Source of the DNA: Oscillospiraceae bacterium CM | GTDB taxonomy: Bacteria; Bacillota; Clostridia; Oscillospirales; Oscillospiraceae | NCBI GenBank assembly: GCA_022870705.1 | Contig: CP072107.1 | Coordinates: 1,424,501 to 1,488,500 of the forward strand | DNA length: 64,000 nucleotides | Reading direction: 5' to 3' | In this document: piece after piece, positions 961 through 37,686 of the stretch | Numbering within the stretch: position 1 is the first letter of the stretch | How the letters are laid out: each line of letters opens with the position of its first letter | Translations under genes and position numbers: made by a program | Notes under the pieces: model-generated | What the model saw: the letters and a program-made list of their open reading frames with translations, nothing else | The model's database searches: none | What the model was told of the DNA's origin: nothing

Positions 961-1006
961 ATAAAAAAACACATCTGTGAGACATACACTGTCCCACAGA
1001 TGTGTT
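961..1006 (-). terminator. Rho-independent terminator of the NiCo riboswitch
   Basis: On the minus strand, AACACATCTGTG (995-1006) pairs with CACAGATGTGTT (968-979), followed by a T run (963-969). The 5' arm is also needed for the last hairpin of the upstream aptamer, where CAGATG pairs with CATCTG. The two folds exclude each other. Metal binding should therefore prevent termination, giving an ON switch. Confidence 0.85.
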
Positions 1007-1078
1007 AAAATCATCTGCTGCCGCGTTTGCGGCCCAGCCCCACGAGCCGAATGGCCCGTCGCCTGCTCAGTTTGTACT
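986..1078 (-). promoter_or_regulatory. NiCo (czcD) riboswitch aptamer
   Basis: The minus-strand RNA carries the conserved blocks of the Ni2+/Co2+ riboswitch in order: ACTGAGCAGGC, a variable hairpin, GGGGCTGGGCCGC, a short hairpin, then CAGATGATTTTAACACATCTG followed by TGGGACAGT. I recognise this order from the structurally characterised NiCo aptamer (four-way junction with cooperative metal sites). It lies between a strong promoter and a terminator, in front of a P-type ATPase, which is the expected context. Confidence 0.88.
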
Positions 1079-1135
1079 GCCTGTTGAACATTCTGTTGTC
1101 GGAATGCGCAGGTCAATGCAATTTTTAATGGGGCT

Positions 1136-7990: not shown

Positions 7991-8029
7991 GATGATAACC
8001 CCTTTTACAGGCTCTGCAAACAGAGCACA

Positions 8030-8106
8030 CGGCAACCGGCTGTCATAACCTTTCGGCCTTAGACCCTTGGCTTTGCGTCCTTGCCTTTCGGCAAGTTTGC
8101 GATTTA
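8030..8106 (-). promoter_or_regulatory. Cyclic di-GMP-I riboswitch, copy C (gene-proximal)
   Basis: The minus-strand RNA has the GEMM-I core: GCAAACTTGCCGAAAGGCAA, GGACGCAAAGCCAAGGGTCT, a short hairpin, then GACAGCCGGTTGCC. Unlike copies A and B it is not followed by a T-tailed terminator. A small hairpin (GCTCTG/CAGAGC) and then the ribosome binding site AAAGGGG of the beta-helix gene follow about 20-40 nt later. It could act on translation or be a remnant. Confidence 0.88.
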
Positions 8107-8123
8107 GGTATCTTTGCTTTTGA

Positions 8124-8164
8124 AACAAAAAAGTTCCGTCTGCGGCTGCGCAGACGGAACTCAT
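8124..8164 (-). terminator. Terminator following cyclic di-GMP-I copy B
   Basis: On the minus strand, GAGTTCCGTCTGCG and CGCAGACGGAACTT form a long stem followed by a T run (8127-8132). It is the expression platform of copy B. Confidence 0.85.
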
Positions 8165-8183
8165 TATCGTGAGTCCATCACTT

Positions 8184-8266
8184 CGGCAACCGGCTGTCAT
8201 CACCGCTCGTGCGGTATTAGACCCTTGGCTTTGCGTCCTTACCTTTCGATAAGTTTGCCTTTTCGG
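8184..8266 (-). promoter_or_regulatory. Cyclic di-GMP-I riboswitch, copy B (middle)
   Basis: The minus strand has GGCAAACTTATCGAAAGGTAA, GGACGCAAAGCCAAGGGTCT, a variable hairpin, then GACAGCCGGTTGCC, which closes P1 with GGCAA. It is followed by its own terminator. Confidence 0.92.
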
Positions 8267-8274
8267 TTTTTGGA

Positions 8275-8316
8275 AATATAAAAAGCTCCGTCTGCGGCTG
8301 CGCAAACGGAGCTTTA
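8275..8316 (-). terminator. Terminator following cyclic di-GMP-I copy A
   Basis: AAAGCTCCGT and ACGGAGCTTT form the stem on the minus strand, followed by TTTTTATA. An upstream GAGCTT could pair with AAGCTC of the terminator arm and serve as antiterminator. Confidence 0.85.
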
Positions 8317-8331
8317 ATAAGCTCTTCGCTT

Positions 8332-8416
8332 CGGCAACCGGCTGTCATCACCGCATCTCTGCGGCTTTAGACCCTTGGCTTTGCGTCCTCACCTTTCGAT
8401 GAGTTTGCCTTTTCGG
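8332..8416 (-). promoter_or_regulatory. Cyclic di-GMP-I riboswitch, copy A (promoter-proximal)
   Basis: First of three tandem aptamers. The minus strand reads GGCAAACTCATCGAAAGGTGA, GGACGCAAAGCCAAGGGTCT, a GC-rich hairpin, then GACAGCCGGTTGCC. All conserved GEMM-I blocks, including the GAAA tetraloop and its receptor, are intact. Confidence 0.92.
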
Positions 8417-8430
8417 TTTTTTATAGCTTC

Positions 8431-27559: not shown

Positions 27560-27587
27560 GCCGTCAAAATGAATAGCTTGTGTCTGT

Positions 27588-27770
27588 GCACACTTTGTGC
27601 CGGTAAGAAATTGCCGAGGGAACGCGGATGTAAATTCCGGACTATCCCAGTAACCGTGAAGCGGACGAGAGGGCAGCATGTCACTGTCAAACGACGGGAA
27701 GACGCCCTAGTAGGATGATGCTAAGTCGGGAGACCTGCTTACACATGAACACCCTGGGTTTGGGATTAAG
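27588..27770 (+). promoter_or_regulatory. Cobalamin (B12) riboswitch
   Basis: Contains GCCGAGGGAACGCGG, GACGGGAAGACGCC, and the B12-box region GATGCTAAGTCGGGAGACCTGC, in the order and spacing of adenosylcobalamin riboswitches. It lies between a sigma-A promoter and a terminator, upstream of a corrinoid transporter, and should switch the operon off when cobalamin is abundant. Confidence 0.92.
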
Positions 27771-36287: not shown

Positions 36288-36369
36288 TGCGCCTGAAGGG
36301 ACTCGAACCCACACGCCTCGCGGCACAGGAACCTAAATCCTGCATGTCTACCAATTCCATCACAGGCGC
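36288..36369 (-). tRNA. tRNA-Leu (anticodon TAG)
   Basis: Reading the minus strand: acceptor stem GCGCCTG/CAGGCGC, D-arm with GGTAGACA, anticodon arm CAGGA-TTTAGGT-TCCTG (anticodon TAG, reads CUA), a class-II variable arm, and T-arm with GGTTCGAGTCC. No encoded CCA. 82 nt including the discriminator A. Confidence 0.93.
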
Positions 36370-36473: not shown

Positions 36474-36500
36474 TAAAGTTTATTTCAAATCATCCGATAT
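36474..36500 (+). promoter_or_regulatory. Sigma-D (motility sigma) type promoter
   Basis: TAAA at 36474-36477, exactly 15 bp, then TCCGATAT at 36493-36500. This differs from the sigma-D consensus TAAA-N15-GCCGATAT at one base. Transcription would start about 20 nt before the cyclic di-GMP-I aptamer. No comparable sigma-A promoter was seen here. Confidence 0.65.
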
Positions 36501-36525
36501 GTATGGTAGAAAAAAGTTCATATTC

Positions 36526-36599
36526 GGCAAAGCCATCGAAAGGTGGCGGCGCAAAGCTAAAGGGGCTAAAGCGATTACTCGCTATGCCAGCCAGTTGCC
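36526..36599 (+). promoter_or_regulatory. Cyclic di-GMP-I riboswitch before a small secreted peptide
   Basis: GGCAAAGCCATCGAAAGGTGG, then CGGCGCAAAGCTAAAGGGGC, TAA, a variable hairpin (AGCGATTACTCGCT), and ATGCCAGCCAGTTGCC closing P1 with GGCAA. These are the GEMM-I blocks with a GAAA tetraloop. It differs more from the three copies at 8 kb than they do from each other. Confidence 0.87.
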
Positions 36600-36629
36600 T
36601 GTCTATTAAGGCAGTATTCATGCAGCTGG

Positions 36630-36664
36630 CTTCCTTTGACACCATGTTGAAAGGAAGTTTTTTC
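36630..36664 (+). terminator. Terminator whose 3' arm is the ribosome binding site of the small peptide
   Basis: CTTCCTTT (36630-36637) pairs with AAAGGAAG (36650-36657), followed by six T residues. AAAGGAAG is also the Shine-Dalgarno of the ORF at 36665. A GCTGGC (about 36625) upstream can pair with GCCAGC in the aptamer's 3' side, a plausible antiterminator. Ligand binding could therefore control both termination and translation. Confidence 0.8.
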
Positions 36665-36805
36665 ATGAAAAAAGCGATTTTTGCAGTTATTATCACCATT
36701 TTATTTCTGCTGGCGGCGGCCTCCCCCGTTTCGGCCGGGCTGACCGAATGGGCTGCCGTTTCCGAAGGTAACAGCCAAATCGTCACATTGTCACAAGCCG
36801 ACTGA
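36665..36805 (+). CDS. Small secreted peptide under cyclic-di-GMP control
   Basis: 46 codons. Residues 1-24 form a textbook signal peptide: two lysines, a hydrophobic core, and SPVSA before the cleavage. The mature part would be about 22 residues, GLTEWAAVSEGNSQIVTLSQ then AD. There is no cysteine, so it is not a lipoprotein or disulphide bacteriocin. The spacing AAAGGAAG-8 nt-ATG and the dedicated sigma-D/riboswitch/terminator leader argue that the ORF is real despite its size. No family is recognised; a signalling peptide or surface-active peptide are possibilities. Confidence 0.72.
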   Translation: MKKAIFAVIITILFLLAAASPVSAGLTEWAAVSEGNSQIVTLSQAD

Positions 36806-36826
36806 TTTCCGCTCTTACAGGCAATA

Positions 36827-36863
36827 AAAAATATCCCGCGCCTCTGGCGCGGGATATTTTCAG
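36827..36863. terminator. Bidirectional terminator
   Basis: AAAATATCCCGCGCC and GGCGCGGGATATTTT form a 15-bp stem with a short loop between the small peptide (plus) and the lipoprotein at 36876 (minus). T tracts exist in both directions. Confidence 0.9.
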
Positions 36864-36875
36864 TTAAAGCCGTGT

Positions 36876-37634
36876 TTATTCCCCGCCCTGATCAAACGTC
36901 GTCAGCTCGCCGTCTTTGAAGATGATATAGGACTCACTGTTAACGACAAAATCTTCGTTGAGACTTGATTTGCCGATGATGCTATCCGGTTCCGCTGTCG
37001 CCGTCAGCGTGCCGAAGGCGGCAATATTGTCCTTATCAAAGAAGGAACGGATAACCTGATATGTGCCGTTATCATCTGGATAGTAATATTGCGCGGCATA
37101 AGCCCCGCCGAGATTGATATACTCGAAGAACATCGTCACGGTGCCGTCGGCATCCTTCAGTGTTGACGTCAACTGATCCTTCGCGGGGTCGTATTGGCAC
37201 GTCTGTGTAACGGCTTTACCGTCTGAATCGTTGTATGTAATACTGTAATTATTGCCGCTGCCGGTGACCTTGACATCCTTCACGCCCATCATGGTCAGCG
37301 TCGACTGCGCCACCGCCGCGTCCTGCGTAAAGGCGGTCAGCCACAGCATGGACATATCCATCAGAGAATAGCCAACAAGCGTCATCGCCACGCCGAGAGA
37401 CTCGGGGTCATCCGAACTGACAGAATTCGAGATTCTATCAATCGCATCACCTTTCATATCCATATAAGCACTATATCCATCGGACGGACTTTTTGCGTTT
37501 GAAGGCGACGGCGACGAAACACGGGTATTATCACTTGTTGACGGACCGGCCGTATTTTTTGGGATGCGTACGCAGCCGCTCAACAGCGACACGAGCATAG
37601 CCGACGCCATGAGTGCTGCTATTAGCTTCTTCAT
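36876..37634 (-). CDS. Lipoprotein of unknown function
   Basis: 252 residues. Lipobox LSGC (Cys21), a Ser-Pro-rich linker to about residue 55, then an alpha/beta domain with NYSITYNDSDGKAVTQTCQYDPAKDQLTSTL, suggesting a beta-sheet domain of the LolA/outer-lipoprotein-sorting type; that similarity is weak. The start at 37634 is set by GGAGAG; a GTG/ATG extension to 37667 is less likely. Confidence 0.75.
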   Translation of the reverse strand: MKKLIAALMASAMLVSLLSGCVRIPKNTAGPSTSDNTRVSSPSPSNAKSPSDGYSAYMDMKGDAIDRISNSVSSDDPESLGVAMTLVGYSLMDMSMLWLTAFTQDAAVAQSTLTMMGVKDVKVTGSGNNYSITYNDSDGKAVTQTCQYDPAKDQLTSTLKDADGTVTMFFEYINLGGAYAAQYYYPDDNGTYQVIRSFFDKDNIAAFGTLTATAEPDSIIGKSSLNEDFVVNSESYIIFKDGELTTFDQGGE

Positions 37635-37686
37635 AAAACTCTCCGTTCTATTGATTGGCATGAACACAGGCCGCTTTCAAGGACTT

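Follow-up and report, generated by a model that had tools for sequence, protein, structure and literature searches.

c-di-GMP decides whether a cell swims or settles. The described system nearest to the locus reported here, judging from the accessible part of the paper, is merRNA of Bdellovibrio bacteriovorus, a c-di-GMP riboswitch RNA of the motile phase, in a bacterium where FliA drives most of the motile programme (PMC3627812). Table 2 in that accessible part leaves a FliA promoter for merRNA itself unmarked, and there merRNA is given no conserved downstream ORF and is proposed to be a reservoir (PMC3627812); in our locus, an ORF with a Shine-Dalgarno (SD) sequence and a signal peptide follows the aptamer. 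Class I c-di-GMP riboswitches in Clostridioides difficile are OFF switches according to the portion available of PMC6200980, and one gene under class I control rises overall via its promoter. The window, by which we mean the whole stretch of 64,000 nucleotides analysed, comes from the genome of Oscillospiraceae bacterium CM (2,185,546 bases, one contig). Its locus has the same complete aptamer as the RF01051 (GEMM-I) class, and OFF behaviour would be expected as in C. difficile (PMC6200980, in its accessible part). It differs from that class in its cargo, a 46-residue putative exported peptide, and in its promoter, which is of the sigma-28 type and is otherwise found with the aptamer in only one other member of the family, the congener G003 (2 of 400 genomes). 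Among the titles and abstract openings searched, mostly outside the subscription literature, none told of a tiny exported protein encoded behind a sigma-28 promoter and c-di-GMP-I aptamer.

The promoter, aptamer, hairpin and ORF are all present, and FliA and flagellin are encoded in the genome. The plus-strand unit is compact, with promoter, leader and ORF fitting into about 330 bp, and sits between a tRNA-Leu and a convergent gene. The features of the locus are as follows.

36288..36369, minus strand: tRNA-Leu, found by Rfam scan, the syntenic landmark for comparison with congeners.
36474..36500, plus strand: promoter of the sigma-28 (FliA/SigD) type, TAAA-N16-CCGATAT, from direct reading, the composite pattern and likeness to flagellin promoters.
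36516..36602, plus strand: c-di-GMP-I riboswitch aptamer (Rfam RF01051).
36589..36598, plus strand: AGCCAGTTGC, the 3' aptamer strand, pairing with 36622-36631 in the free minimum-energy fold (anti-aptamer helix, 10 bp).
36622..36631, plus strand: GCAGCTGGCT, the partner strand of the anti-aptamer helix, from folding.
36630..36663, plus strand: terminator-like hairpin and U-run, from folding, with the SD in its 3' arm (36650-36657).
36665..36805, plus strand: ORF of 46 codons, with the SD AAAGGA at 36650-36655, from ORF reading, codon score and a signal-peptide rule.
About 36826..36860, no strand assigned: GC-rich inverted repeat flanked by A and T runs, from direct reading.
36876-37667, minus strand: convergent gene with a lipoprotein-like start, from direct reading.

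The GC-rich repeat can serve as a terminator-like element for both the ORF unit and the convergent gene. Leu and Thr leader models matched this repeat weakly; these matches were below cut-off and were rejected.

The sigma-D-type promoter proposed in the initial annotation was upheld. TAAA (36474-36477) is followed after 16 nucleotides by CCGATAT (36494-36500), a form shared with the organism's own flagellin promoter candidates, and transcription would be expected to start near 36506-36508. The composite pattern of promoter plus aptamer had a single match in the window, and 100 dinucleotide shuffles gave no match. A scan of 400 family genomes found it in two, the window's own and G003, and a reversed control pattern gave no match among the matches listed; among 172 loci, the composite was confined to copies of these same two loci. 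All six genus genomes, the window's own included, encode flagellin and a FliA that scores over the cut-off, and a site of the form TAAA-N16-NCGATA[A/T] lies upstream of the main flagellin gene in each of them (L157-L162), with two such sites in the own genome. The best site adjoining the gene has a spacing of 16 in all six, and G003 adds a second site with a spacing of 17. At the four loci examined, no comparable sigma-28 site was found for a second Flagellin_N gene. The generic pattern TAAAN{14,17}CCGATAT matched 15 times in the own genome versus 6 times for its reversed control; the five of these loci that were read looked intragenic by eye, so we dropped the generic pattern and took the flagellin form as the promoter reference. 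With a promoter of the organism's own sigma-28 form and an encoded FliA, the unit is a predicted member of the sigma-28 (FliA) regulon, and we hold with high confidence that the promoter and aptamer leader are real.

A covariance-model search, as the initial annotation had recommended, matched RF01051 at 36516-36602 over the full model (1-87 of 87) and scored 75.8 bits, well above the gathering threshold of 35 (E = 4.4e-13); the claim of a complete c-di-GMP-I aptamer was thereby confirmed. By this score the leader is a putative member of the c-di-GMP-I riboswitches. GGCAAA, CGCAAAG and UUGCC are all present in the cmscan alignment and keep the ligand-contact core, which we take to be GGCAAA, CGCAAA and the 3' GCC. 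A consensus u-a pair has become G-C, with both sides changed, and the subtype here is GGGGC with GCC. The leader is predicted to bind c-di-GMP and to control the gene. The own genome has nine c-di-GMP-I aptamers. As judged by eye, one is upstream of a type IV pilin with prepilin peptidase, another upstream of a prepilin peptidase with a Flp-like pilin, three in tandem upstream of a pectate-lyase-like exported protein, and further ones upstream of a cNMP-binding-like protein, a small HTH protein and a mobile-element-like region. The tandem triplet upstream of the pectate-lyase-like protein occupies 8028-8419 of the window on the minus strand, where each of the first two aptamers is followed by a GC-rich inverted repeat and a T-run. 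In the window's genome and in all five congeners, a c-di-GMP-I aptamer lies ahead of a transposase-like small HTH protein, called at about 82-114 residues (L005, L041, L044, L082, L089, L096), and in some cases a TetR-like gene comes next (by eye). The window also contains a NiCo riboswitch (987-1080, minus strand) and a cobalamin riboswitch (27567-27756, plus strand).

The overlap of terminator and SD that had been claimed for this leader was borne out by folding. The 5' arm CTTCCTTT (36630-36637) and the 3' arm AAAGGAAG (36650-36657), which holds the SD, form a terminator-like hairpin followed by a U-run (36658-36663), and the segment 36627-36664 folds with -12.5 kcal/mol. In the free fold of the leader (36507-36664; -59.7 kcal/mol), the 3' aptamer strand forms the 10-bp helix with the linker, and AAAGG pairs with the CCUUU of the terminator, breaking it. 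When the Rfam aptamer structure was enforced (-44.5 kcal/mol), the SD-holding terminator hairpin was intact. Because the enforced aptamer turns the predicted fold from antiterminator to terminator, the model suggests an OFF switch at high c-di-GMP, with expression in motile cells at low c-di-GMP; this agrees with the AND logic of motility sigma factor and c-di-GMP proposed at the outset. The anti-aptamer helix is modestly beyond chance, an equal helix length being reached in 61 of 2000 linker shuffles and the duplex energy being matched or beaten in 40 of 1000. Enforcing the aptamer cost 3.9-5.9 kcal/mol up to 36626 and 15.2 kcal/mol at 36664. Given this high cost, the switch would have to act co-transcriptionally, with tertiary energy that lies outside the calculation. 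Part of the SD and of the U-run is paired with the 5' leader in the free fold, so antitermination is better supported than an open SD.

The ORF begins with a signal peptide of about 24 residues (cleavage site placed by eye), and the remaining 22 residues have a net charge of -3 and no cysteine. Its frame is open upstream to 36398 and offers an alternative ATG at 36620 (61 codons); the start at 36665 was favoured because of the SD and its position. Compared with 384 off-frame ATG segments, the codon score ranks at the 97th percentile, and compared with 49 real gene starts, at the 69th. Synonymous choice alone was not distinctive (81st and 53rd percentiles, respectively), and the codon signal of the mature part alone was about neutral. 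Of the window's 461 ATG-initiated frames of 40 codons that are not genes, the ORF alone satisfied a crude signal-peptide rule of our own making, which is not SignalP; the same rule picked out 3 of the 49 genes. The coding signature together with the Sec signal points to a candidate gene for a secreted peptide, and the ORF is probably translated. The secreted peptide of the initial annotation stands insofar as there is an ORF with an export signal, but the "perfect signal peptide" described there amounts to a match to our crude rule. No Pfam family matched the ORF. A match to the NCBIfam model JUQZ_fam_ocin reached 16.7 bits versus a cut-off of 40 and was rejected as signal-peptide similarity; this identity is further weakened by the acidic character of the peptide and by its 46 residues as against the 107 positions of the model. 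Signalling, surface-active or adhesion roles might be imagined for the peptide.

The explanation that we consider best, and to which we give an even chance, is that the locus is a self-contained, lineage-specific unit in which an OFF switch controls a functional peptide destined for export. RNA polymerase with FliA would transcribe the unit only in cells running the motility programme. At low c-di-GMP, the antiterminator would form (36589-36598 with 36622-36631, plus 36559-36563 with 36633-36637), leading to read-through and synthesis of the 46-residue preprotein. At high c-di-GMP, the aptamer would fold and the hairpin at 36630-36657 would form, so that transcription would end and the SD would be sequestered. 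Sec would lead the preprotein to the membrane, where cleavage would release a 22-residue acidic peptide; alternatively, the product may stay uncleaved as a one-span membrane peptide facing outward. Most likely, the peptide would act as an exported output of cells that are motile and low in c-di-GMP. In this scheme, we infer the direction of the switch (OFF) as well as the translation, export and function of the peptide. Tiny membrane proteins behind a like composite in nine Bacillaceae and two betaproteobacterial records, described below, were counted as support for it.

Relatives of the peptide were sought in several collections. None was accepted in 60 related genomes (best foreign match, E = 0.019) or in 400 family genomes (best match, E = 0.0127), where the weak matches mostly covered the signal peptide and lay in other, mostly longer frames. 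None was confirmed in genome_contigs and viral_contigs, in a search with the 61-residue query that is sensitive to close relatives only, and none was found in plasmids and phages at E<=0.01. The initial annotation had stated that its reading should fall if the ORF, as opposed to the leader, was without conservation in relatives, and on this count the result was unfavourable: G003 has a leader of this type, while no relative of the peptide was found in the collections searched. The mature peptide thus does not appear to be conserved. LigA identity within the genus is 63-71%, and because the genus is this deep a fast-changing peptide could be missed.

We then compared the site itself, using the three congeners (G001, G004 and G005) in which, as in the window, a tRNA-Leu and ligA are close together; G003, whose ligA runs off its contig, and G002, with 375 bases past ligA, were left out. 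All three lack the unit at this place: between the tRNA and the gene that follows it, neither strand has the CGCAAA aptamer motif, and no Rfam match under stricter filters fell within the tRNA-adjacent tract. In G005 this tract is crossed by a chance-like frame of 99 codons without a signal peptide. G001 keeps the convergent lipoprotein gene and a GC-rich hairpin at the corresponding place, so its site is empty; a homologue of the lipoprotein gene was not found in the stretch examined in G004 and G005. The like leader in G003 (G003:C199, L092) lies elsewhere in that genome. It shares with the window's leader the sigma-28-type site, the GGGGC/GCC aptamer subtype and the SD-bearing hairpin, but has two tandem aptamers and precedes a 333-residue S8 protease (Pfam-confirmed). 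The free fold of its first leader has an AGAGG-to-CUCCUUU pairing resembling that of the window's leader, whereas in the second, which adjoins the gene, the SD hairpin stays formed, so the first copy alone speaks for an antiterminator there. This second leader, together with the partly paired SD in our own leader, lowered our confidence in the best explanation.

With a conserved leader and a non-conserved ORF, the unit is lineage-specific as far as these comparisons go. Because the leader is conserved, the cargo differs and the site is specific to the lineage, the pattern is compatible with either a captured gene or a truncated remnant. The latter is the main rival to the exported peptide: the leader and signal peptide would once have served a larger exported protein, of which a deletion left the start. 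The S8 protease behind the G003 leader provides an example of such a protein, nothing close to it is encoded in the own genome (best, 39% over 205 residues, in a 3677-codon frame), and an ORF without conservation and with a compositionally neutral mature part is what a remnant would leave. The start of the G003 protease, however, has no recognisable similarity to the peptide by eye, the stop of the unit falls about 20 bp ahead of the terminator-like repeat, and the 46 residues match no Pfam family. We regard a remnant as unlikely, while giving it real weight.

A product that is RNA only, in which a sigma-28-driven, c-di-GMP-binding RNA would buffer c-di-GMP like merRNA and the ORF would be incidental, seems improbable to us. 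It has a precedent in merRNA within the FliA-dominated programme of Bdellovibrio, from what is accessible of PMC3627812, and in C. difficile 5 of the 12 class I riboswitches are without a detectable downstream coding sequence in the accessible part of PMC6200980. Against it, a well-placed SD, an ATG and a signal peptide come straight after the hairpin, and a real gene stands behind the like leader in G003. A merRNA-like sponge would be expressed massively and would lack a conserved downstream ORF; in this unit an ORF with an SD is present, though not conserved.

That motile cells alone export the peptide as a signalling pro-peptide, which would be a particular form of the best explanation with the Phr/PapR layout (about 45 residues, a Sec signal and a short C-terminal signal), agrees with the size and layout of the ORF but is equally improbable, as the two flanking proteins score above no Pfam cut-off, a TPR/HTH receptor was not seen next door and the peptide is in no known family.

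Among the loci surveyed in the window's own clade, a short exported or membrane cargo is rare. First ORFs were surveyed at 129 aptamer loci of the own genome, genus, family and order, after seven further loci with an undetected aptamer motif had been dropped. Gene calling was crude, several short calls being spurious and the window ORF being called as 61 codons from 36620; with this reservation, the first ORF had at least 100 residues at 102 loci and was shorter at 24, and three loci had none. Besides the window ORF, L325 (59 codons) was the only surveyed short first ORF with a strongly hydrophobic start, so that tiny hydrophobic cargo is atypical here, limited in these 129 loci to the window ORF and perhaps L325.

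A wider scan of genome_contigs with the composite pattern returned at least 119 stretches, counts that are not to be read as frequencies. A strict hairpin test requiring a GNRA loop was passed by 53 of the 119 matches listed, and twelve more look real by eye. By their record titles, the matches listed span many phyla, and the first genes behind the composite (by eye) include pilins, secreted proteins, response regulators, an EAL-like protein and S8 proteases. In a Nitrospiraceae record (L258), the composite leader before an S8 protease (by eye) has an aptamer matching RF03167. At least nine Bacillaceae records (L175, L205, L208, L231, L247, L267, L274, L282 and L287) have a related membrane protein of 40-46 residues, which carries [WYF][ILV]T[PA]E as its start motif and a hydrophobic span at the C-terminus, and whose ORF lies 136 to 177 bases past the promoter start. 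All nine aptamers passed the Rfam cut-off, including those of L208, L247 and L267, which had failed the hairpin test. Three of the nine proteins were scanned against Pfam and NCBIfam, and no family was above cut-off. These TPEE proteins share with the window's locus the composite, a length of 40-46 residues, a hydrophobic span and, in eight of nine, the aptamer subtype (by eye). Unlike the window peptide, they have their span at the C-terminus and no N-terminal signal peptide, and no sequence relation to it was seen by eye. Among the matches listed, two betaproteobacterial records (L211 and L290) have a like composite in front of hydrophobic proteins of 42 residues, which form another related pair. 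Tiny products behind such leaders, for which a search of related genomes had been advised from the start, are thus not unique to this locus as a kind, though in the survey of the own clade they are rare.

Because the Bacillaceae and betaproteobacterial records carry tiny membrane proteins behind the composite, tiny exported or membrane proteins behind a sigma-28 and c-di-GMP-I AND-gate recur as a kind, a more interesting result than the window peptide itself. We tentatively propose, with more doubt than conviction, that this AND-gate with several unrelated families of tiny proteins (the TPEE proteins, the betaproteobacterial 42-mers and the orphan peptide) defines an undescribed class of motile-phase micro-proteins that would be turned off as c-di-GMP rises. 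If a gene can be read only with the motility sigma factor, and only while c-di-GMP is low, its product belongs specifically to swimming cells, and the composite leader, present in many lineages, provides testable candidates for micro-proteins at the motile-to-sessile switch.
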